IMG/VR virus record: IMGVR_UViG_3300035181_000419 | Location: 1-60,490 of that record | DNA from: a virus | DNA length: 60,490 nt | Reading direction: 5' to 3' (one strand) | In this document: in pieces, positions 26,573-59,345 of the stretch | Layout: every line of letters begins with the position of its first letter | Numbering within the stretch: position 1 is the stretch's first letter | Made by a program: the position numbers and the translations under genes | The notes under the pieces: generated by a model | Database searches by the model: none | Told to the model about the DNA's origin: nothing | What the model saw: only the letters and a program-made list of their open reading frames with translations

Positions 26573-27916
26573 TCAGCCGTAGTAAGTCTTAGTGACAGAA
26601 AGACTCTGCCCGCCAATAAAACGATAGACAATGTAGTATCCAAGTCCATCCGATAAGTGGGTCAGTTTCGCGTCCTGATGCTTATCAATCTCGCCACTGC
26701 CACCTTCAAGCAGCCGCACACCGTCCAAATCGCGCGATGTCATGGGGGCTCGGCTCGGGTCACAATAGAGATGCCTCTCTCCTACGACATTCAGAATGCG
26801 GCTGTTCATGCAGTTCACCCTCGCGCGCTCAGTGGGATTCGCACGAGGCACAAAATACATGAATCGTTCTCCAAAGTGCGGTTTAAGCACCGACCTGACC
26901 AGATCCCAATCAGAACCCTGGGTCGCCGACGTCTTTCTGTTCCCTCCGGTGGCGTCGCCATACACATGAACTTCACCCTGGTGCTCGCCCCACACTTCAA
27001 TGAGTTTCCGGCATACGGCCACGGTATTAGAATTCTGAGGTATGTAAACCTCGCCGATAACCTTAGTTCCGACGAGCCCGTTCGGGAGGATCCCCTCCTG
27101 GGCAACGACCGCAACGCCCGGATCCACATTGAAATCAAAGCAGAACGCGATCGGAGCCTTTGGATCGTAATCCAGTCTAGCTTTGTTCGCGTCGGTATAG
27201 TTGTAGTAGGCCCTTCCAACGAAGTTGACAAAGGATCCCTCGTATTCCTGTTGGAAGGTAAGCTCGTCCATGTCACGCTTAGCCGACTCAATCGTCTTCG
27301 CGTCTAAGACCTCAGAACTCTTCCAGTGGTAGTAACCCCACTCGCTCGCATCTCCGAACTCAATCATCTGTGCTTTGGCATACTCGGCGATGTCGTAGTA
27401 GTGATTTCTTCCTTCAGGCACGCCGATCAGATCACACCAGCCCTGCCGGTCAGCCAGTGCAGGCCGGACGTTCGCGTTCCAGGCCGACGCCTTCATGTTG
27501 CCGTATTCATCAAGGATCCCGCCGTCCCAGGGCGATCCTTCAATGCGCTCGGGCTTGTCCATGCCCACGACCATGATGGTCGAATTCATAATGGTGGTGA
27601 TGGAAAGCTCTGTTTCTGAGATCCCACGGGGGGCGACCAGCCGCTTCGGCACCAAGAGCTTCAGATCATTCCAATAGATGCGCTTGGCCTGATCCCGAGT
27701 GGGCGCCCCGCAGAAGTATCGTGGATCCGGAAAGTTGCTCGCTCCAGGCATCCCGGGTGGCATGAGCGCCCGCAGCACGAGTTTCCGCTTTGCGTTCTCT
27801 GTCTTCCCCGATCGTCGCCCCGCAGGCACCACATTGAACCTGTGGGGGGAGTTCGCATACTCCATCTGTGGCTTGATCTCGCGCAGTGGAGTCCAACGAG
27901 CGGGGAGGCTGAGCAT
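26573..27916 (-). CDS. terL: terminase large subunit
   Basis: 447 residues. ATPase: Walker A VPAGRRSGKTEN (about 30-41), Walker B GGILDEYGN (about 130-138) with the catalytic Glu. RNaseH-like nuclease: AFCFDFNVDPGVAVVAQ (about 250-266), then later acidic residues in VHVYGDATGGN and DGLGYYIV. It packs DNA into proheads and cuts it. The gene order TerS, TerL, portal, scaffold, coat is canonical. Confidence 0.92.
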   Translation of the reverse strand: MLSLPARWTPLREIKPQMEYANSPHRFNVVPAGRRSGKTENAKRKLVLRALMPPGMPGASNFPDPRYFCGAPTRDQAKRIYWNDLKLLVPKRLVAPRGISETELSITTIMNSTIMVVGMDKPERIEGSPWDGGILDEYGNMKASAWNANVRPALADRQGWCDLIGVPEGRNHYYDIAEYAKAQMIEFGDASEWGYYHWKSSEVLDAKTIESAKRDMDELTFQQEYEGSFVNFVGRAYYNYTDANKARLDYDPKAPIAFCFDFNVDPGVAVVAQEGILPNGLVGTKVIGEVYIPQNSNTVAVCRKLIEVWGEHQGEVHVYGDATGGNRKTSATQGSDWDLVRSVLKPHFGERFMYFVPRANPTERARVNCMNSRILNVVGERHLYCDPSRAPMTSRDLDGVRLLEGGSGEIDKHQDAKLTHLSDGLGYYIVYRFIGGQSLSVTKTYYG

Positions 27917-27930
27917 CGGCAGCCTACCCG

Positions 27931-28476
27931 CTACTCGCCGCCGGGCGCCGCGCCCTCGGCATCTGCTTCTTCCTGAAGCCTCCGCTTCACGAGGTAGGCA
28001 TTGTAGTCAGTCTCCTTACCAGACTGTTTCATCGCCTGATACAGGAAGTCTCGAACCGCGGTCGCTCCATCGTTGTCGCCCTTGGGGGCCTGATCCATAC
28101 CGAGGAACTTGGACCGTCGGTCAGAAATCTTCAGGAGGATGTCAGCGGACTTACTATCCTTGGCCGTGGCCCAATGAATCTTATGGAGCGCGTCCAGGCG
28201 GCTGAGCTCCAGGACCATCACTTCATCAAGCGTCTCCTGAAGCTCCTTGTGCAGAAGCTCCAGGCCCGTCTTCACAAGTTCCCTAGCCATGACGGTGCCA
28301 ATTCCCATGATAGCACCGATTTCCATGTAGTCATGGCCGTCCCGACGGAGCTGCATGGCTTTGAGCACTCGGAGCGAAACTCCCAGGGAGGCTTCGTCCA
28401 CGAACTCAAACACGTCCACATCTGGCGCATCGGGGGGAATTTGCAGGGGCTCCGGTTCTTTCCTAGTCTTCGCCAT
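27931..28476 (-). CDS. terS: terminase small subunit
   Basis: 181 residues. First gene of the late operon, directly behind a promoter (28504-28532). A helical HTH-like region near 45-75 (LRRDGHDYMEIGAIMGIGTV) fits recognition of packaging sites, and a coiled oligomerisation region and acidic C-terminal tail follow. The family call rests on position and general form. Confidence 0.75.
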   Translation of the reverse strand: MAKTRKEPEPLQIPPDAPDVDVFEFVDEASLGVSLRVLKAMQLRRDGHDYMEIGAIMGIGTVMARELVKTGLELLHKELQETLDEVMVLELSRLDALHKIHWATAKDSKSADILLKISDRRSKFLGMDQAPKGDNDGATAVRDFLYQAMKQSGKETDYNAYLVKRRLQEEADAEGAAPGGE

Positions 28477-28684: not shown

Positions 28685-28801
28685 GTGCGGCGTGAACATT
28701 CCGAACACCAGCATAGATGCACCCCGAGGTGTGCGGAGTATTAGCTCCTCAGTGCTGCGAGACCAGGAGCGCGGAGCCGCCATAATGGCACTGAATGGGC
28801 A

Positions 28802-28876
28802 TATGCTTATATACCTATATACCCGTATGCTTATACACCCACCTTACACATATAATTATATGCACATATGCTTATA
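28802..28876 (+). repeat. three TATGCTTATA repeats in AT-rich DNA
   Basis: TATGCTTATA occurs at 28802, 28826 and 28867, within about 120 bp of TA-rich sequence with many ATAT steps. Each copy resembles the -10 element TATGCTT used at 41328 and 42766, but no matching -35 is seen. Candidate functions are clustered promoters or an easily melted origin element. Confidence 0.65.
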
Positions 28877-28938
28877 CACCTACTATGCACATATAGCTAT
28901 ATAACTACATGCACAGTAAGGCATACTGTAGCCTAAAG

Positions 28939-28966
28939 CAATGCCCAGCGCATAGGCTGGGCATTG
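28939..28966 (-). terminator. 11-bp perfect hairpin after the GA/TC-free gene
   Basis: CAATGCCCAGC (28939-28949) and GCTGGGCATTG (28956-28966) form an 11-bp stem with a 6-nt loop, 18 bases past the stop of the leftward gene at 28984. Only a short CTTTAG follows on the minus strand, so termination may be weak. Confidence 0.55.
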
Positions 28967-28983
28967 GTTGCCTTGCGGCTGTG

Positions 28984-29484
28984 CTAGGCAGGCACGCTAA
29001 GGGTGATTACCTGCTTTTGCCACGCGCACCTAACGTCACCCGCGTTAATGCTAAACCACGCGCCCGTGGCCGGGTGCTGGGCCGCAAGGCCCCGCACCTT
29101 GCACTGGCCGCTGGCCTGGGCCTTGGCCTGCGCGGGCAGGGTGCAGGCCAGCACGGCGCCCACGGTGCAAGGCTGGCCGTTGCTGGCAAGCTGGCCCATG
29201 GCCTGCAAAATGGCGTTGTGCCCGGCGCTGCGCACGCTACCGTTGGCAGGCACGGGCACGGGGCCAGTGGCCACCAGCAAGCCATGCGTGGGCATGGCGC
29301 CCCCGCAGAGCTGGTGCATGAGGGTGGCCTGGGCCTGCCTGCTACTGGCACCCTGCAACGGCGTGCTGGGCGTGGCGGGCACCGGCACGGCGGGCACGGC
29401 GGGCGCCTTAACGGCGGGCGTGGTGGTGGCGGTGGTGGTAGCCTTGGCGGCCTTGGCGGTGGTGGTGGTGGGCTTGGTAGCCAT
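28984..29484 (-). CDS. Thr/Ala-tailed protein without glutamate, unknown function
   Basis: 166 residues from the ATG at 29484, which is preceded by AAAGGGG. Residues 1-50 are a low-complexity Thr/Ala/Lys/Pro tail; residues 55-166 look like a compact domain with three to four Cys (LMHQLCGG, VGAVLACTL, GQCKVRG, VRCAWQKQ). It has no Glu, one Asp and uses AGC for Ser, a consequence of the missing GA and TC dinucleotides. Its own promoter lies at 29532-29561 and a hairpin follows the gene. I recognise no family. The basic low-complexity tail recalls the proteins at 41417 and 56100, but the C-terminal domain differs. The gene may be foreign or under unusual sequence constraint. Confidence 0.7.
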   Translation of the reverse strand: MATKPTTTTAKAAKATTTATTTPAVKAPAVPAVPVPATPSTPLQGASSRQAQATLMHQLCGGAMPTHGLLVATGPVPVPANGSVRSAGHNAILQAMGQLASNGQPCTVGAVLACTLPAQAKAQASGQCKVRGLAAQHPATGAWFSINAGDVRCAWQKQVITLSVPA

Positions 29485-29531
29485 TGTGTACCCCTTTGGG
29501 TATGGGCCGGGCGGCATTGCCGGGCTTGCAT

Positions 29532-29561
29532 AGTATAAGCATTGCCCATGCCAAAGTGCAA
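29532..29561 (-). promoter_or_regulatory. promoter of the Thr/Ala-tailed gene
   Basis: Minus strand TTGCAC (29561-29556), 18 bp, TATACT (29537-29532), 48 bp before the ATG. It lies wholly inside the GA/TC-free interval. Confidence 0.7.
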
Positions 29562-29723
29562 GGTGCTGTGTTTGCAGCACTTAGCTATATTACCGCCGTG
29601 GCATAGTGCCGCATTGCGGCATAGCATAAAGGCCCGTTTGCCGCTAAGTGTAGCAATAGCATAACTTAACCTGGTGCCGCGTTGGGGCTATGCTATGCCG
29701 CATTGCGGCACCCGCCCACACGG

Positions 29724-29856
29724 CTCGCCCGTAGCAGCTTTCGTGCCAATTCGCCCTTAGCATCTTTCGTGCCAATTCGCCCTAAGCAGCTTTCGTGCCA
29801 ATTCGCCCTAAGCAGCTTTCGTGCCAATTCGCCCTTAGCAGCTTTCGTGCCAAAGC
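29724..29856. repeat. 26-bp tandem array (iteron-like), five copies
   Basis: The unit tttcgtgccaattcgccctt plus agcagc recurs at 29739, 29765, 29791, 29817 and 29843 (the last incomplete), an exact 26-bp period with one or two variants. The period is not a multiple of three, so it is not a coding repeat. It starts precisely where the GA/TC-free interval ends. A pyrimidine-rich tract (29858-29900) follows. Phased repeats of this size are typical of origin iterons or regulator arrays; which one applies here is open. Confidence 0.85.
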
Positions 29857-29916
29857 CATTCTTTTCGTTTTCGGTTTCTTTATTCTTTTCTTTTCGTAGT
29901 CTATGCCTCAGGCGCG

Positions 29917-30015
29917 GAGTCGCGCGGAGTCGCGCAGAGTCCCGCTCGAGCGCCCGCGTGTGAGCTCAACCCGTGAGCTCCTCGGCTCCTCGAGCGAGCG
30001 CCCGCGTGTGAACTC
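29917..30015. repeat. degenerate GAGTCGCG / CGCGTGTGAACTC repeats
   Basis: Several partial copies of the elements that bound the leftward cassettes: GGAGTCGCGCGGAGTCGCG near 29917-29935, then two gcgcccgcgtgtga(g/a)ctc ends near 29950-29968 and 29998-30015. Rich in GAGTC and GAGCTC, in sharp contrast to the neighbouring GA/TC-free interval. No gene is seen. Confidence 0.7.
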
Positions 30016-30031
30016 CGCGATCTGTGATCCT

Positions 30032-30109
30032 GAGTCGCGCAGAGTCAGCCAAAAGATGCTCAAATAAGGAGTCCCCTAAGGGACTCCTCGCGTGCTCGCG
30101 TGTGAACTC
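30032..30109 (-). repeat. cassette-boundary repeat with terminator, copy 1
   Basis: Begins GAGTCGCGCAGAGTCAGCC and ends CGCGTGTGAACTC. Inside, GGAGTCCC (30068-30075) and GGGACTCC (30080-30087) form an 8-bp stem; on the minus strand TTATTTG follows, so it ends the transcript of the gene at 30108-30308. It is about 90% identical to 30415-30492. Confidence 0.85.
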
Positions 30110-30308
30110 AGTTCCAATTCCCGTAGGCACGTCGCTCAGCTTGCTCTATCGCGCGCTGCCACATCTGGTCTATGAAGTCGCGTAATCGCTGATGCCCTGA
30201 TCGCTTGGCGCGGATTTTCCTTGATTCTCCGGCACACAGCCGCTTGCAGAGGATGTTTCCTGTGTAGGGGTGGCGGGGGAGGCGGCGAGTGTGGGTGGGG
30301 GTGGCCAC
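30108..30308 (-). CDS. small basic protein, leftward cassette 1
   Basis: 66 residues from a GTG at 30308, chosen because AAAGGAG lies seven bases upstream. Very basic (many Arg, ESRKIRAKRSG), with a helical second half (RDFIDQMWQRAIEQAERRAY). Possibly a nucleic-acid-binding or host-directed early peptide; no family is recognised. It is a single-gene unit with its own promoter (30355) and terminator (30068-30087). Confidence 0.6.
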   Translation of the reverse strand: MATPTHTRRLPRHPYTGNILCKRLCAGESRKIRAKRSGHQRLRDFIDQMWQRAIEQAERRAYGNWN

Positions 30309-30354: not shown

Positions 30355-30413
30355 AGTATAGGGCCTATGCAGCTCAAATGCGCCTCAAAGTTTAATCAAA
30401 GATTTTCGAGCCC
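30355..30413 (-). promoter_or_regulatory. cassette promoter with TTTGA repeats, P1
   Basis: Minus strand: ATCTTTGATTAAACTTTGAG, then GCGCATTTGAG and TATACT at 30360-30355. TTTGA occurs three times, about 11 bp apart (one helical turn). The same block stands before the other leftward cassettes (30883-30940 and 31920-31974). TTGAGG lies 22 bp from the -10, too far for a normal -35, so the repeats may bind an activator or repressor. Confidence 0.65.
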
Positions 30414-30414
30414 T

Positions 30415-30492
30415 GAGTCGCGCAGAGTCAGCCAAAAGATGCTCAAACAAGGAGCCCCCTAAGGGACTCCATGCGCGCTCGCGTGTGAACTT
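30415..30492 (-). repeat. cassette-boundary repeat with terminator, copy 2
   Basis: Near copy of 30032-30109: same GAGTCGCGCAGAGTCAGCC start, a hairpin GGAGCCCC/GGGACTCC (30451-30458 with 30463-30470, one mismatch) followed on the minus strand by TTGTTTG, and the CGCGTGTGAACT end. It ends the two-gene unit 30491-30836. Confidence 0.85.
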
Positions 30493-30697
30493 AGTTTTTC
30501 GGATAAACCTTGATGCCGTCAACGTAGACAGCTTCAACATCGTGCTCGAATCCCGGTCCGGGGTTATTCACCAGACTATGAATCACATCCAGCTCCCTAG
30601 GATCCAAGAACGCGGACCACGCGGGGAGACCGTTGGCGAAGAAAGGGCTGGGAGTCTCGGGAACTCCGGGCTTACGAGTGATTTGGACGTGTGCCAT
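30491..30697 (-). CDS. small protein, leftward cassette 2, second gene
   Basis: 68 residues starting MAHVQITRKPGVPETPSPFF and ending VEAVYVDGIKVYPKN. The ATG lies one base past the stop of the membrane peptide gene upstream, which implies coupling. The C-terminal half, with ELDVIHSLVNNPG and DVEAVYVDG, looks like a small folded domain. Unknown function. Confidence 0.55.
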   Translation of the reverse strand: MAHVQITRKPGVPETPSPFFANGLPAWSAFLDPRELDVIHSLVNNPGPGFEHDVEAVYVDGIKVYPKN

Positions 30698-32150: not shown

Positions 32151-32893
32151 AAGGACTGGGATCTCTGTATTATAGCGAAAATGAGCGAAAATGGATTGAG
32201 GGATGAACGTGGAAACTCGGATCTTTGGCCCGATTTATGGAGTAGAAAACACAGATTTTGTGTGGCTCGGCTCTTTGTGCTCAGATCGCTCATCGTTCAG
32301 AGAACATAGTCAACTCGGAAGGATTCCGAATTTTGCATAACTCGGAATCGAGAATCACACCGCCTTTTGGGGGGAGGATTATGGCGGCGCCGGAGATCGG
32401 AGAAGCGAAGAATCTTGGCGAAGATCTGGGCGCTTAACAGAATCTTATCGGGGAATCTTATCGGTGGATCTTATCAATTACTCATTATGGGCAGGCATAC
32501 TCCGTGCCAAAAGGCATCAGAGATCCAAGTTTCCAAAAAGTTTATTTTAAGTGTAACCATCTATATATACCTAGAATAAAATAAATAAATATAATAAGTA
32601 AATAAATAGGAAAGTATAGAGTTATAGTTGTGTATTTTGTTTTACAGTATATAAGACCGGCACGCGCAAAAGCCCTTTTTTCGTTATTCAACCTATTGCA
32701 AACAGGGCACATGAGTTTTACGTTTCAAAAGCATTTCCAGCCCCCCACCCGAGAAGCCCAAAATCTGGCCCAATTATGGAGCAAAATGCTCGGTGCCAAA
32801 CTATTACATAAGGTGCCTCGGGGAGTCCCAGAGCCACCTTATATAATAAGCCCCCGCAGACCCAAAAACCGCGCTATTCCGTAAAACAAGCCG
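32151..32893. other. gene-free leader region between divergent gene sets
   Basis: No convincing gene: open frames here lack ribosome-binding sites. It holds an AT-rich stretch (32560-32625, many AAATAAATAA words), a TTTTTTCG run near 32676 and a long interrupted palindrome at 32810-32840. The region divides leftward and rightward transcription and might include replication or control sites. Confidence 0.6.
32810..32840. promoter_or_regulatory. 31-bp interrupted palindrome
   Basis: AAGGTG-c-CTC-g-GGG-agt-CCC-a-GAG-c-CACCTT: a near-perfect inverted repeat with two single mismatches, followed by ATATAATAAG. It may be an operator or a hairpin in the leader about 55 bp before the early promoter. 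Confidence 0.6.
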
Positions 32894-32922
32894 TTGCGCA
32901 TGAGGAAAACACACCCTATACT
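32894..32922 (+). promoter_or_regulatory. first rightward early promoter
   Basis: TTGCGC (32894-32899), 17 bp, TATACT (32917-32922), 32 bp before the first rightward ATG. The spacer starts ATGAG, as in the promoter at 49451. Confidence 0.82.
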
Positions 32923-32953
32923 TAGCTAGGCACGGTGGCCTAGGGAGAAACAC

Positions 32954-33457
32954 ATGGAAGAAGAGGAATATATTCCCAAGCGAAAGTCGTCACTTACGGA
33001 GGAACAGCGCTTCGACGATAAGTTGGTGAAGTCCCCCAACTCCGACTGCTGGCTGTGGCAGGGAACGCGGGGCCGAGGCGGGCAGTGCCTTTTCACCCTC
33101 AGTAGCGGCAAGCTGGTTCAGGCTGGACGCTATGCCTGGGAGCGAGCGCATGGCCCCCTTGAGGCGGGCGTCCGCGTTTCGAGGACCTGTTTGAATAGGA
33201 ACTGCATGAACCCGGCGCATCTGTATGTTTACGCCCCCGAAGGCTACAAGCCCAAAGTCGGAGCGCCCGAGCGCGAAATGAAGCCGAACATGCGGATGGT
33301 TGAGAAAAAGATCATGGAGCTTCATGCCGAGCTTACAGCCCAGGGCATGGAGGGCGCGGCCATTGCCGCGAGGCTGAAACGTCGGAAAGTAGAATTGTGC
33401 AAGGAGTTTGGGCTGATCGAAGGCACTAAGTTCCTGAAGAAGGGTGCCAAGGAATGA
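32954..33457 (+). CDS. HNH-like protein with lost catalytic His
   Basis: 167 residues. SDCWLWQGTRGRGG (about 30-43), YAWERAHGPLEAGVRVSRTC and LNRNCMNPAHLYVYAP follow the HNH_3 framework (CWLWxG, AHRxxY, HxCxNxxCxNPxHL). However, the AHR motif is altered and the catalytic His before TC is Arg (VSRTC). The C-terminal part (about 110-167) is a basic helix-turn-helix-like region ending KFLKKGAKE. It is likely a DNA-binding protein derived from an HNH nuclease. First gene of the rightward region, behind the promoter at 32894; it overlaps the next gene by 4 bp. Confidence 0.65.
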   Translation: MEEEEYIPKRKSSLTEEQRFDDKLVKSPNSDCWLWQGTRGRGGQCLFTLSSGKLVQAGRYAWERAHGPLEAGVRVSRTCLNRNCMNPAHLYVYAPEGYKPKVGAPEREMKPNMRMVEKKIMELHAELTAQGMEGAAIAARLKRRKVELCKEFGLIEGTKFLKKGAKE

Positions 33458-44911: not shown

Positions 44912-45314
44912 ACGCTTCAAACTTAAATGCAAGCTCATGGCCACACTGAGGGCTGGAACATGGAAGCCTGATGGTCGTGAGAACGGCTATTTTGAGCTGG
45001 ATCTAATTAGGGCGCTTCAAGCAGCCACCGATATAATGAGTATGGCGGAGAAAACAGAGTCGAAAGCAGAAAAGAAACCAGAGCCCCAGCATCCAACCAT
45101 CAAAGAGAAGCTGCGTGGGGACACAATTCGTATCCAGCGCGTAGACCAATATGGCGTGCGTGGGACGTCTATTCCTGTGTGGGCGCGTGAGGCTATCCTG
45201 AAGGAAGGTATCGGCCTACTCGCGAATAATATCTGTATGCGTTTTCCAGCCAGTCTATATTCTCGCGTCGCCATAGAAGAGCAAGCATACCTGCTGAAGC
45301 AGCTTGGCCTGTAA
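44901..45314 (+). CDS. replication-region protein, unknown
   Basis: 137 residues from the ATG at 44901, inside the end of radC (GGAGGG upstream). A Lys/Glu-rich helix (AEKTESKAEKKPEPQHPT) joins two small parts: KLMATLRAGTWKPDGRENGY and RGTSIPVWAREAILKEGIGL. No family is recognised. Confidence 0.55.
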   Translation: MLDERFKLKCKLMATLRAGTWKPDGRENGYFELDLIRALQAATDIMSMAEKTESKAEKKPEPQHPTIKEKLRGDTIRIQRVDQYGVRGTSIPVWAREAILKEGIGLLANNICMRFPASLYSRVAIEEQAYLLKQLGL

Positions 45315-45339
45315 AGCGGGGCCGCAGAGCGCGTCAGGG

Positions 45340-45377
45340 TTGGGCCATGGCTGGGCGGCGTGCCCAACATGGCCCAA
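45340..45377 (+). promoter_or_regulatory. nested hairpin in the leader of the primase gene
   Basis: TTGGGCCATG (45340-45349) pairs with CATGGCCCAA (45368-45377), and TGGGC/GCCCA can pair inside. It lies after the stop at 45314 and before the promoter, so it may terminate the upstream transcript. Confidence 0.6.
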
Positions 45378-45428
45378 AGCCTTGAGCGGGCGCCTGAGCG
45401 CATCGGGGCGCGGTCCCATTTGCGGCCC

Positions 45429-45457
45429 TTGCGCTTTACCGTGGCAGGGCTTAACAT
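45429..45457 (+). promoter_or_regulatory. promoter of primase-helicase
   Basis: TTGCGC (45429-45434), 17 bp, TAACAT (45452-45457), 37 bp before the ATG. Confidence 0.65.
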
Positions 45458-45493
45458 TACCTTCCGGCCATTTATGCAGCTATAGGGGTTAGC

Positions 45494-47539
45494 ATGAGTA
45501 ATAAGCTCCAAACCAGTGACGATGTCATGGTCGAAATGCTTGACAAAATTAGAAAATCAGGCCTAACTGAAAAGCACGCCGCTCGGCTTGGGTTCGACAC
45601 ATATACGGCCCAGGAGGCTCTAACCTCCAACCTGCCCTTTCCCAAGGCTGGGTTCAAGATCCCTTACTTTGACTTAGCTGGCAACGAAACAAAATTCTGG
45701 CGCTTCCGTTATCTTGAGTCTACCCTAAACGCTTGGGACAAAGCGACTGGTAGGAAGGAAATGCGCTACTGTCAGCCAAAAGGCTCGTTGAACGAGTTAT
45801 ACCTGCCCCCTCTAGTTAACTGGGCCAAGATAGCTGGAGATACAACGGTCGCAGTTATCATTACGGAGGGGGAATTGAAGGCAGCCTGCGCCTGCGCCGC
45901 TGGGTTCCCCACCATCGGGCTAGGAGGAGTCTGGTGCTTCAGGTCGTCTGCAAATCACATGCACCTGCTTCCGATGTTTGATGAATTCAAATGGGAGCAG
46001 CGAACAGTCTTCATCTGCTATGACTCCGACGCCGCTGTGAATACGAAAGTTATGGCCGCAGAGAACGCCCTGGCCCGCGAACTAACCCTGCTAGGAGCCG
46101 TGCCCTTCGTCGTTCGCCTGCCCCAAACATCCCCGCCTCTTAAAACGGGGCTTGATGATTATTTAGTTGAGGAAGGGGTGGAGGCACTGAAGGTCGCGCT
46201 GCAAGAAGGTGTGGAATGGCGGGCCGCTAAAGAACTATTCAAACTCAACGAAGAAGTGGTGTATGTCAGAGATCCTGGTGTCATCCTTCGGCTTGATAAC
46301 ATGCAGAAAATGACACCCATGAGTTTCACTAACCATGCCTACGCGAACCGCCGGTATTTTGAGGAAGTAATCGGCGCCAAAGGCGTGAAGCTAGTAGAAC
46401 GAAGCGCCCCAGCAGAATGGATGAAGTGGCCCCTTCGCGCAGAAGTTGCCCGCTGTGTCTACAAACCGGGTGAAGACCACTTCTACAAAGGGGCGATGAA
46501 TACATGGCCCGGATGGGGCTGCTACCCCGCTGAGGGATCTGTCCAGCCGTGGGAAGAGCTCATGGAATATATGTTCAATGTTGAAGACATCCCAGAACGC
46601 GCCAAAGATCGCAAGTGGTTTGAGCAATGGCTGGCATATCCACTTCAACATCCAGGAGAAAAGCTCTATACCGCCGCAGTTTTCTGGGGAACAAGGCATG
46701 GCACAGGCAAGTCACTGATCGGCTATTCCATGATCAAGATTTATGGGAAAAATGGAACTGAGATTGGCGACCGTGACCTTCATGCTTCGTTCAATGAGTG
46801 TATGGAAAATAAGCAGTTCATCATGGGAGAGGAGATAACGGGCGGGGATAAGCGGGCCGTGGCTGATCACATGAAGTCAATGATCACCCAAAAGCAGCTC
46901 AGATTGAATGTCAAATACATCCCAAGCTATACGATTGACGATTGCATCAATTATTACTTCACAAGTAACCACCCCGACGCATTCTTCCTAGAGGATACGG
47001 ATCGTCGGTTTTTTATTCACGAAATAAATGCGCCGCCGAAGCCGTTCAAGTTCTATTCCGACTACATGACTTGGCTGAACGGCAGCGGTGCCAACGCATT
47101 GTTTGACTATCTATTGAAGATCGACTGCTCAGACTTCAATCCGCAGGGCGCCGCCCCCATGACAGTGTCTAAGCAAGAAATGATTGATAATGGCAAGAGT
47201 GATATTGCCGCATGGGTCGCGCTACTTAAAGATCAGCCCGATTATGTGACGCGACTTGGCGGTGTGACCTTGAAACATCGTCTTTGGTCCGCCACAGAAC
47301 TTCATTCAATATACGATAAGGATGGGCGCGGCAAGACGACAGTGGGAGGCATGGCGCGAGAATTGGCGAGGGCGGGTATTGAGAAAGCTGCGGAAGGGGC
47401 GAATATTTTCACTGACCATGGTATGCAGAAACTGTGGATTATCAGGCCGATTCCCCACACGGTATCCCCCGCTGAGTTGTCTGAAATGTATCTCACAGAA
47501 CGGGGGATTGCGTGCAAGAAAACTACTACAAAGTTCTAG
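45494..47539 (+). CDS. primase-helicase (DUF3854 TOPRIM-like + SF3-type ATPase)
   Basis: 681 residues. Residues about 60-230: zinc-less primase part with ITEGELKAACACAAG and VFICYDSDAAVN, the Glu and Asp-x-Asp of a TOPRIM-like domain. Residues about 380-530: helicase core with Walker A GTRHGTGKSLIGY (near 398) and an acidic MGEEITGGDKR Walker B-like motif. The C-terminal part resembles D5/DUF5906-type ends. It should prime and unwind at the fork. It starts the DNA replication module together with ligase and polymerase. Confidence 0.8.
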   Translation: MSNKLQTSDDVMVEMLDKIRKSGLTEKHAARLGFDTYTAQEALTSNLPFPKAGFKIPYFDLAGNETKFWRFRYLESTLNAWDKATGRKEMRYCQPKGSLNELYLPPLVNWAKIAGDTTVAVIITEGELKAACACAAGFPTIGLGGVWCFRSSANHMHLLPMFDEFKWEQRTVFICYDSDAAVNTKVMAAENALARELTLLGAVPFVVRLPQTSPPLKTGLDDYLVEEGVEALKVALQEGVEWRAAKELFKLNEEVVYVRDPGVILRLDNMQKMTPMSFTNHAYANRRYFEEVIGAKGVKLVERSAPAEWMKWPLRAEVARCVYKPGEDHFYKGAMNTWPGWGCYPAEGSVQPWEELMEYMFNVEDIPERAKDRKWFEQWLAYPLQHPGEKLYTAAVFWGTRHGTGKSLIGYSMIKIYGKNGTEIGDRDLHASFNECMENKQFIMGEEITGGDKRAVADHMKSMITQKQLRLNVKYIPSYTIDDCINYYFTSNHPDAFFLEDTDRRFFIHEINAPPKPFKFYSDYMTWLNGSGANALFDYLLKIDCSDFNPQGAAPMTVSKQEMIDNGKSDIAAWVALLKDQPDYVTRLGGVTLKHRLWSATELHSIYDKDGRGKTTVGGMARELARAGIEKAAEGANIFTDHGMQKLWIIRPIPHTVSPAELSEMYLTERGIACKKTTTKF

Positions 47540-56551: not shown

Positions 56552-57508
56552 ATGAAAACTGTGGTGTTCAGTTTCAATCCTCCTACACCCGACGGCTCGT
56601 TGGCAAACGCGCGAACTGCGACTTTTATTGCTGACACGCTCGATGTCCCACTTATTTGTGATAAGAATATCGCAGATGTTGAGGCTGATGTTCTCATTCT
56701 TGTGGCGGGTGTTTTCATGTATTGTCGTTGTCTGCCCGAAGTCGGCGCCGCTGTAGAAAAAGCCAAGCGCGTCGTCTGGGCACAGAATGACTACACCATC
56801 AAGCCCCCGCTTGCGGACGGCATTGCCGAAAGCCCGTTTAGAAAAGCATTCAGGAACCGTAGGTCTGCTGGTCTGCCCGATGTTGATTTCTGGACCACAA
56901 TGAAGAAGGCCTCAGAAAAGACGCCCTTCAGTGCGTGGGTGAACTGGAATCAGATGGCGTATGAAACCCCCATCAGTGACGAAGCTTTTGAGCTGAATCG
57001 TGAGCACGCCATTGAATCATTCATCTACTACGGGGCCGATAGGCTGGGGCGCCGAGACTACTTTGACTGGTATTTCAATGGACAGAAGGCGCCATTGACT
57101 ATCAGTTCCTTTAGTAAGTCAATGTCTCGCTACGAAGATGATGCCGATATCATTCCTGCATTCAAGCGAACTGAGTTCTTTGACCGATTGGGCCAGTATT
57201 CCGCCGGGCTATACCTGGAGGACAAACGCTCGCACGCCGAGTTCACCAGCCCTGCCACGCGGTTCTATGAGATGCTCCGCGTGGGGGTTGCCATGTTCTT
57301 TCAGCCCCAGGCGGTTCCCATGCTGGCGAAGGCTGGGTTCGATGTTGCGCCCTTTGTTGCCACGCCGGGGCAGCTACCAGACGCGCTCAGCAGGGCGCCA
57401 GAGGTGGCTCGCCAGCAACGGGCACTGTGGGGTGGTAGGCCCTACCTTCAGCACCTAAAGGAACAGCTTTTGCGAGAGCACGCACGCATCCAGGAGGGTG
57501 TCAAATGA
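56552..57508 (+). CDS. GT-B glycosyltransferase-like protein, DNA modification cassette
   Basis: 318 residues. Rossmann-like start KTVVFSFNPPTPDGSLANAR, VWAQNDYTIKPP near 75-86, SFIYYGADRLGRRDYFDWYF near 158-177 and a C-terminal pattern EFTSPATRFYEMLRVGVAMF (about 230-249) that recalls the acceptor-end Glu and helix of GT-B glycosyltransferases. The stop overlaps the start of the hmdU-kinase-like gene. In hypermodified phages such proteins can glycosylate hydroxymethylated bases. Family uncertain; the cassette role is inferred from neighbours. Confidence 0.5.
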   Translation: MKTVVFSFNPPTPDGSLANARTATFIADTLDVPLICDKNIADVEADVLILVAGVFMYCRCLPEVGAAVEKAKRVVWAQNDYTIKPPLADGIAESPFRKAFRNRRSAGLPDVDFWTTMKKASEKTPFSAWVNWNQMAYETPISDEAFELNREHAIESFIYYGADRLGRRDYFDWYFNGQKAPLTISSFSKSMSRYEDDADIIPAFKRTEFFDRLGQYSAGLYLEDKRSHAEFTSPATRFYEMLRVGVAMFFQPQAVPMLAKAGFDVAPFVATPGQLPDALSRAPEVARQQRALWGGRPYLQHLKEQLLREHARIQEGVK

Positions 57509-58353
57509 GTAATCCTATGCGCGTAGACGACCTGTGCTATTGGATCAAAGAGCGCCATTCCATCTATACCAAGAAGCAGGCTGGGGAGCCAAAGCCTTGG
57601 ACCCAGGACCCAATCTTGCAAAGTTATCGGTTCTGCAATGTCTATCGAAATCTCGATACCGTGACAGAATGGATCCACGCAAACTGGATGAACCGCAGCG
57701 ATCCGAATATGTTCGTGGCTATGGCTATCGCACGGTTCGTGAACTGGCCAGACACCCTTGAAGAAATGGGGTTTCCGTTGCCGTGGGATCCCGAGCATTT
57801 TGTATCGGTCCTACATGATCGCCGGCGCAGGAACGAGAAGGTTTACAGTGGGGCCTACATCGTATCCACTAACGGCCACGCCATGGATAAGGCCGAGTAT
57901 CTCGCCAACTTCGTCATCCAGCCCATCTGGGACAACCGCATTGACGTTCGCCCAAAGAAGGGTGACACTCTTGAGTCCTTCTACCAGCGGCTTGTCAAGT
58001 TCGATGGGCTGGGCAGCTTCATGGCTGGGCAGGTGATAGCTGATCTGAAGTATGACAAGTTCAGCCCACTTTACGAAGCAAGCGATGAATTCAGTTGGGC
58101 GACCAGCGGGCCTGGGAGTCGGCGAGGCATGAACCGTGTCATCCAGCGGCCTCCTGCAGCGCCTATCACTGAGCGGGTGTGGAGGGAGAACCTGACCATC
58201 CTTCACCAAGCCGTTCAGGACAGGCTCGCCCCTTTGGGTATGCCGCCAATCTGCGCCCAGGACCTCCAGAACGCATTATGTGAGTTCGACAAATTCGAGC
58301 GCGTCCGGCTTGGGGAGGGCACCCCGCGCTCCGGATACCCTGGGAGGGGCTGA
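57505..58353 (+). CDS. putative 5-hmdU DNA kinase (aGPT-Pplase2 / HMUDK helical family)
   Basis: 282 residues. IKERHSIYTKKQAGEPKPWT (about 14-33) followed by DPILQSYRFCNVYRNLDTVT (about 34-53) is the hallmark opening of the family first predicted as pyrophosphorylases of thymine hypermodification and later shown to include 5-hydroxymethyl-dU DNA kinases. GLGSFMAGQVIADLKY (about 166-181) is the helix-hairpin-helix-like DNA site. These enzymes activate the hydroxymethyl group on DNA for further substitution. The next gene makes the hydroxymethylated nucleotide. The identification is by remembered motif. Confidence 0.65.
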   Translation: MSNPMRVDDLCYWIKERHSIYTKKQAGEPKPWTQDPILQSYRFCNVYRNLDTVTEWIHANWMNRSDPNMFVAMAIARFVNWPDTLEEMGFPLPWDPEHFVSVLHDRRRRNEKVYSGAYIVSTNGHAMDKAEYLANFVIQPIWDNRIDVRPKKGDTLESFYQRLVKFDGLGSFMAGQVIADLKYDKFSPLYEASDEFSWATSGPGSRRGMNRVIQRPPAAPITERVWRENLTILHQAVQDRLAPLGMPPICAQDLQNALCEFDKFERVRLGEGTPRSGYPGRG

Positions 58354-59345
58354 TGGAATTCCGTGCAAGAAACCTCACGCAGGTGATGGCCGCGTGCCTT
58401 CCTAAACTTGTGGAGGGAACCGCAGAGTCCTCGCGTAACGGGCCGGTGATCTTAATTGACGAACCGGTGATCCTCACTTACGAGAAACCTTGCGAGCGAG
58501 TGCTGTTCTCACCCACACGCGACGCTAACCCATTCTTTCATCTAATGGAAGCTCTATGGATGCTGGCGGGGCGCGACGACGTTGAGTTTCCCACCAGGTT
58601 CAATTCAAAGTTCAGCCAGTTCTCAGATAATGGTGTGACCTTCAATGGAGCCTACGGTTTCAGATGGCGCAAGTATTTTGACACAGATCAGATTGAACTG
58701 GCTGTCAAAGAACTAACGGAGAACCCAGGTTCAAGGCGCGTAGTAATCGGGATGTGGGATCCGATGTGCGATCTTGGATCCACGAGCAAAGACATCCCGT
58801 GCAACACGCACATCTATCTGAGCATCCGGGAGAACTCTGGTCTGCTGGATATGACAGTGTGCAACCGAAGCAACGATGCAATCTGGGGGGCCTTTGGCGC
58901 GAACGCTGTTCACATGAGTATTCTTCAAGAATACCTGGCGGCATCAATTGGCGTGGGCGTTGGGCGCTACCGACAGGTGACAAACAATCTCCACTTCTAC
59001 TCGGATACCTTCAGCGTGGAGAAACTATCACGCATTGCGGATGAGTGTGCATCAGACACGGCGTATTCACTAGGACGTGTCAGTCCTTATCCGCTGATCT
59101 CCATTTCCCCAGGCTGCTGGATGACTGAGCTCCGCGAGTTCCTGGCGAAGCCATCAATGAAGCCTGAGAACTACCACGATGGCTTTTTCGCCGAAGTGGC
59201 GGCCCCCATGTTCGCCGCTTGGGGGGAACGGAAGGCTAATGGGGACACGCATAAAATGAACCAGCTCATAGAAAGCATCGCCGCTTATGACTGGCGCGTG
59301 GCCTGCCGAGAATGGGTTGTCCGTAGGAGTAAGAAAGATGTATAA
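58353..59345 (+). CDS. thymidylate synthase-like deoxypyrimidine hydroxymethylase
   Basis: 330 residues. SSRNGPVILIDEPVILTYEK, ERVLFSPTRDANPFFHLMEA, then DIPCNTHIYLSIRENSG with the catalytic Cys (about 146-162) and CNRSNDAIWGAFGANAVHMS (about 169-188). The family branch with ANPFFHLMEALWMLAGR is typical of phage hydroxymethylases. The Asn in GAFGANAVHM takes the place of the Asn that selects dUMP in thymidylate synthases; dCMP hydroxymethylases carry Asp. So 5-hydroxymethyl-dUMP is the likely product, but plain dTMP synthesis is not excluded. It directly follows the kinase-like gene. Confidence 0.75.
   Translation: MEFRARNLTQVMAACLPKLVEGTAESSRNGPVILIDEPVILTYEKPCERVLFSPTRDANPFFHLMEALWMLAGRDDVEFPTRFNSKFSQFSDNGVTFNGAYGFRWRKYFDTDQIELAVKELTENPGSRRVVIGMWDPMCDLGSTSKDIPCNTHIYLSIRENSGLLDMTVCNRSNDAIWGAFGANAVHMSILQEYLAASIGVGVGRYRQVTNNLHFYSDTFSVEKLSRIADECASDTAYSLGRVSPYPLISISPGCWMTELREFLAKPSMKPENYHDGFFAEVAAPMFAAWGERKANGDTHKMNQLIESIAAYDWRVACREWVVRRSKKDV

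Follow-up and report, generated by a model that had tools for sequence, protein, structure and literature searches.

A GA/TC-depleted gene cassette beside the terminase genes as a candidate modification-exempt element of phages with a predicted thymine hypermodification system

The window analyzed here, one entire IMG/VR phage record of 60,490 nucleotides (IMGVR_UViG_3300035181_000419), contains a discrete gene cassette nearly devoid of the dinucleotides GA and TC. This desert is maintained in relatives, it lies directly 5′ of the terminase genes, and deserts of the same kind recur in other phage contigs that encode HMUDK_hel, the helical domain of 5-hydroxymethyl-dU (5-hmdU) DNA kinase. The explanation that best accounts for these observations, to which we assign a probability of roughly 0.7, is that an enzyme of the phage itself modifies T in TpC, and that selection purges TpC and GpA from a cassette that has to remain free of modification. 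Hypermodified phages must shield their DNA from host nucleases yet stay readable by host enzymes. If the proposed explanation is correct, part of the solution can be read from the sequence, in the form of a cassette from which the modification word has been removed.

The desert is real. A recount over 28794–29725 found 4 GA/TC steps compared with approximately 122 expected, and within 28795–29724, where local composition predicts about 110, it returned exactly the three GA and one TC of the initial annotation (odds ratios 0.06 and 0.02, respectively). AG and CT, which had been said to remain common, are kept in normal or near-normal numbers (37 and 55). Relative to same-size windows of the genome the desert odds lie 9.7 SD away for GA and 7.1 SD away for TC, and the edges are marked by a GA at 28793 on the left and a TC at 29725 on the right. 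The GA/TC-free runs inside the desert measure 405, 272 and 212 bp, whereas outside it no such run in the 60,490-base record exceeds 58 bp. In a maximal-segment analysis 28794–29725 scores 110.9, the second-best segment of the window scores 7.8, and 40 simulated second-order Markov genomes give maxima of at most 12.8. The odds over the whole window are 1.06, that is, ordinary outside the desert, with a genome average near 7.8 GA plus TC per 60 bp; the earlier figure of about 6 was too low, although the desert it was meant to set off is confirmed. When dinucleotide odds are followed across the genome and in relatives, as had been proposed, the desert stands out, and two weaker GA/TC-poor spots occur in the window (Table 1).

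Table 1. Features of the window that bear on the GA/TC desert and on the predicted modification system.
Feature	Position	Strand	Evidence and remarks
GA/TC desert, predicted modification-free island	28794..29724		4 steps vs ~122 expected; also in relatives L003–L006 and L012–L014
AT-rich imperfect repeats, ATATGCTTATATACC type	28795..28915		Between desert gene and terminase genes
Terminator-like hairpin at desert gene end	28936..28969	-	Inverted repeat; weak terminator-like match 28957–28943
Desert gene	28984..29484	-	166 aa, net charge +10, stop TAG; open reading frame, orthologues, counterparts in the deserts of G058, G059 and G050
Desert gene upstream region	29485..29724	-	Palindromes, inverted repeat, promoter-like element
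Terminase large subunit (TerL)	26573..27916	-	phrog_2, E 1.2e-30
Probable terminase small subunit (TerS)	27931..28476	-	By position, directly upstream of TerL; PHROG match phrog_645, labelled 'RNase E'
Secondary GA/TC-poor stretch	32533..32945		23 vs 54 expected; just 5′ of gene at 32954
Secondary GA/TC-poor stretch	45280..45496		8 vs 28 expected; just 5′ of primase-helicase gene at 45494, ends at its start codon
HMUDK_hel partner gene, possible glycosyltransferase	56552..57508	+	Adjoins HMUDK in L079–L084, L086, L087 and G047
HMUDK_hel, 5-hmdU DNA kinase helical domain, candidate TpC-recognition module	57505..58353	+	PF18723 E 2.2e-44, over cut-off; 35% to phage M6 gp55
dUMP hydroxymethylase candidate, thymidylate synthase-type	58353..59345	+	45% to phage M6 gp58; PF00303

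Structural genes run leftward from about 28.5 kb and replication genes rightward from about 33 kb, and the desert has the layout of a single transcription unit immediately 5′ of the terminase genes: a small basic gene preceded by palindrome-rich DNA and followed by a hairpin. The coding sequence obeys the same rule as its surroundings: the absence of Glu, the restriction of serine to AGC and AGT, and the TAG stop were all borne out, with 0 Glu residues and no TCN serine codon. The protein contains 1 Asp, its N-terminal part is rich in Ala, Thr and Pro, and its C-terminal domain may be a helix-helix-beta hairpin; the AF2 model (pLDDT 39) is too weak to name a fold. Searches of Pfam and PHROGs gave nothing significant for the gene, and neither the desert nor its gene had a match in the annotated phage collection, at the DNA or the protein level. 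The product is probably a DNA-binding protein. Upstream of the gene two palindromes, TGCCGCATTGCGGCA, at 29607–29621 and 29696–29710, lie within a 23-nt inverted repeat (29606–29628 and 29689–29711). A TATACT-like element at 29532–29537, with TTGCAC 18 nt upstream (29556–29561), was assigned by eye as a candidate promoter and is conserved among five relatives; a consensus promoter scan of the desert gave no more matches than shuffled sequence and did not list it. Outside the desert, a TTCG-rich array of 26-bp tandem repeats (29725–29854) begins exactly at the right border and is followed by GAGTC-rich repeats at 29912–30110, with an 85-nt copy at 30412–30496. The GAGTC repeats and the TC-rich tract had been placed immediately at the border; both start some 130–190 bp out, beyond the 26-bp array.

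Comparison with relatives, fetched by the desert gene or by TerL, indicates that the desert is maintained. The same desert is present in L003–L006 (898–1068 bp, with 0–9 GA/TC) and in L012, L013 and L014 (at least 329, 357 and 589 bp), the TerL of the latter being 67–70% identical to that of the window. Random synonymous recoding of the window desert gene predicts 38 (SD 4.6) GA/TC steps, compared with 4 observed. The orthologous genes are 82–84% identical and differ by 98–112 nucleotide substitutions, and the expectation that homologues would keep the bias holds in three of four: the genes of L004, L005 and L006 contain 0 GA/TC where about 31 are expected, and that of L003 contains 8. Because some 100 substitutions introduced no GA/TC in these three genes, the sequences argue for continuing selection on DNA words, acting across codon boundaries and in non-coding DNA alike. 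TerL relatives at 57–62% identity (L015–L018 and L024) contain no such GA/TC-poor segment, and HMUDK_hel was not found in the 60 kb contig of L016 or the 53 kb contig of L024. The desert contigs L003–L014 are fragments and carry no kinase gene. Desert contig L013 and an HMUDK contig, L098, whose kinase is 55% identical to that of the window, come from the same metagenome (3300000553) and may be one phage. In L015, where no kinase was detected, a gene for a small basic-tailed protein extends from 4184 downwards on the minus strand at the corresponding place; it has ordinary GA/TC content and 11 Glu, and is a candidate counterpart by position.

The predicted modification genes lie at the far end of the window. 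Beside HMUDK_hel and the hydroxymethylase candidate (Table 1) lies a partner gene whose glycosyltransferase label is weak: the L087 homologue matches PF13524 (Glyco_trans_1_2) below threshold, and Foldseek assigned no fold from the weak AF2 model of the window protein (pLDDT 58). The P-loop 5-hmdU kinase family PF18748 has no match in the window, tblastn with M6 gp54 likewise found none, and the aminoalkyl tailoring genes gp51–gp53 of M6 gave no tblastn match; lacking a PF18748 homologue, the window presumably carries a chemistry different from that of M6. The neighbors of HMUDK_hel vary among phages. In M6 and Sonora the neighbor is a PF18748 kinase, in four loci (L103:3080-3862, L116:9208-10020, L142:8520-9458 and L117:8604-10001) it is a TAGT glycosyltransferase of PF20691, and in three (L137:9030-9950, L110:4622-5545 and L097:8288-9247) it is a radical SAM protein. 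These arrangements suggest that DNA recognition resides in HMUDK_hel and the chemistry in its partner, which would make HMUDK_hel an adaptor with swappable chemistry. Restriction-resistant sites in the DNA of M6, ViI and phiW-14 contain TG or TC, and SP8 DNA treated with 5-hmdU DNA kinase gained resistance only at TG/TC sites (PMC6449724, PMC7653180).

The link between GA/TC deserts and HMUDK_hel extends beyond the window lineage. An alignment scan for HMUDK_hel gave 61 non-redundant loci from other lineages (0.98 Mb), of which 17 hold a GA/TC-poor island (score >11), compared with 0 of 43 kinase-free terminase loci in a smaller control set of 0.51 Mb (Fisher p 6e-5, a descriptive value since the score thresholds were set while the analysis was under way, with several choices of dinucleotide and cut-off considered). 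The same test with other words found 1 island for CA/TG, 2 for AC/GT and 1 for AG/CT. In whole contigs, at a score >13, there are 14 GA/TC islands in 23 HMUDK contigs and 0 in 7 control contigs. Three contigs have kilobase deserts, namely G059 (11 GA/TC vs 149 expected), G050 (35 vs 115) and G058 (53 vs 142), and these and the window each carry kinase and desert on one contig. All three deserts lie just upstream of TerS-TerL genes unrelated to those of the window; the terminases of G058 and G059 are of the same type (87% identical), so that two further terminase types are represented. Within each desert lies a single small basic gene, and GA/TC is depleted in its coding sequence as well (6 vs 42 in G059, 16 vs 28 in G050 and 16 vs 41 in G058). 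The small basic proteins of different lineages share weak homology; they are alike in position and charge, and loosely similar at the C terminus. In 6 of 15 contigs, against an expected 1.2, the top GA/TC-poor segment falls within the 3.5 kb upstream of TerL (p 0.0006, likewise descriptive), and the smaller islands are mostly in intergenic gaps and end near the next gene start. In G059, 10 of the 11 residual words are TCG, a hint that residual words mark contexts of the kind an enzyme would distinguish.

Most HMUDK contigs have no strong GA/TC island. phiW-14, an HMUDK phage with chemically proven modification, shows no island with TG, TC or TG+TC in the 150 of 157 kb scanned, and thus islands are not required by every HMUDK phage. 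A generic intergenic depletion of GA/TC in HMUDK phages was considered and rejected, as non-coding DNA is not depleted relative to controls and the islands are discrete. Perfect 8-bp tandem arrays lie downstream of the desert gene within the deserts of G059 (GCACGCCA x13, L223:15120-15223) and G058 (CGCCAGCC x7.4, L218:4433-4491). The TerL ORF of G059 (L223:16544-19396, 950 aa) seems to carry an intein-like insert. A contig without HMUDK_hel, L040 (G020, 86,878 bp), contains a 21 kb stretch with a low GA/TC ratio (0.57).

A second word may be avoided in the M6-like group. The M6 kinase reportedly acts at TG, and in M6-like HMUDK phages non-coding CA/TG is depleted, with a coding-normalised ratio of 0.71 compared with 0.94 in controls. 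In both M6 and FP1, the windows poorest in CA/TG map 5′ of TerS and 5′ of the first replication gene. Since the depletion is partial and other words are shifted too, this support is of medium weight.

Taken together, these results are consistent with the following mechanism. The phage would make 5-hydroxymethyl-dU, which would be hypermodified after replication, with HMUDK_hel as the DNA-reading part that recognizes T followed by C (TpC, equivalent to GpA on the other strand). A cassette held free of TpC and GpA by selection (28794–29724) would then carry no modified base on either strand, even in virion DNA. Once the fully modified genome has been injected, unmodified host RNA polymerase could start and continue transcription on this cassette, and proteins, perhaps those of the packaging apparatus among them, could still read its repeats. 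In vitro, bacterial RNA polymerase is blocked by bulky groups in the major groove (PMC11550810). Because such groups block the polymerase and the clean unit spans both promoter-like DNA and a full coding sequence, an early gene read by host polymerase is our first choice for the function of the cassette, although the TpC-rich remainder of the genome needs transcription too.

The main rival concerns purpose and not cause. With the same molecular basis, the island could be a pac/cos or terminase-complex site and the small protein a packaging accessory factor, which we regard as a tentative but serious proposal. The cassette is directly 5′ of TerS-TerL in four lineages (the window, G059, G050 and G058), with repeats between desert gene and terminase. 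Furthermore, early work on phiW-14 already noted that the modified thymine is placed non-randomly and is linked to packaging; phiW-14 and SP-15 require the modified base for packaging, and it was suspected that where this base sits is important (PMC5977210). A packaging site, however, would not need a whole clean coding sequence, and further islands occur at other gene starts.

Explanations that invoke a different cause fare less well. A replication origin or an exclusion zone for primase starts, raised in the initial annotation, could draw on the position between minus-strand structural and plus-strand replication genes and on the AT-rich repeats and small DNA-binding-like gene; it may have a side role but leaves both the HMUDK_hel association and the coverage of an entire coding sequence unexplained, and is improbable as the cause. 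It is slightly less probable still that the avoided word is GpA and reflects a DpdA-type 7-deazaguanine system that modifies G in GA. Such a GA context has reportedly been described for phage CAjan, but the DpdA/TGT domain PF01702 is absent from the window while the same search found it in all 14 control genomes, and the deserts track HMUDK_hel instead. Escape from an enzyme that recognizes a GA/TC-containing word, the first cause put forward initially, fits best in its general form, with the TpC thymine hypermodifier of the phage itself as the most likely enzyme. A host restriction enzyme, nuclease or CRISPR PAM with such a word is very unlikely: word avoidance under restriction is a known phenomenon, but GA/TC frequencies are ordinary in the remainder of the genome, so that a clean 1 kb would protect nothing, and recurrence beside the terminase would be left unexplained. 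Least probable of all is a local mutation bias or a recent segment from a biased donor, also suggested at the outset; a sharp border could arise once in this way, but orthologues about 20% diverged remain clean through some 100 substitutions, independent deserts recur in unrelated phages, and the dinucleotide counts of the desert show no excess of TT or AA, which decay of TC to TT would give.

Self-modification at TpC with an exempt cassette would have consequences beyond the window. The avoided words would predict the site specificity of the enzymes of uncultured phages, namely TpC for the lineage of the window, TpC but with TCG disfavoured for G059, and TpG for the M6 group, and the deserts would provide a sequence signature for finding hypermodified phages. 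The uncharacterised desert gene would then be expected to be expressed from unmodified DNA or to act on it. With somewhat less assurance than for the window itself, we favor the view that modification-exempt cassettes are a class of phage element, in which self-hypermodifying phages purge the target dinucleotide from a gene unit beside the terminase. The unit would encode a small DNA-binding regulator that is read from and acts on unmodified DNA, and the avoided word would reveal the specificity of the enzyme. We know of no described precedent for such a modification-free island, and in the literature searched none is described for M6/YuA, ViI or phiW-14.

Several known systems provide points of comparison. 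With the thymidine hypermodification systems of M6/YuA, ViI and phiW-14, which comprise a dUMP hydroxymethylase, a 5-hmdU DNA kinase and tailoring enzymes, the window shares a dUMP hydroxymethylase homologue and HMUDK_hel, and dinucleotide-specific modification is expected in it likewise. Unlike the M6-type system, it has no PF18748 kinase or gp51–gp53 homologues, and the possible glycosyltransferase adjoins HMUDK_hel instead. The 7-deazaguanine modification of the CAjan type resembles the proposed system in site choice at the dinucleotide level, but the window has no TGT domain. The pac/cos regions 5′ of TerS genes are comparable to the deserts of the window, G059, G050 and G058 in position and repeats, and the desert differs in containing a full gene and in being defined by an absent dinucleotide. 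Finally, as in restriction-site avoidance, a short word is removed by selection. Whereas avoidance of restriction would be expected to deplete the word genome-wide, the depletion in the window is local to one cassette and is probably aimed at the phage's own enzyme.
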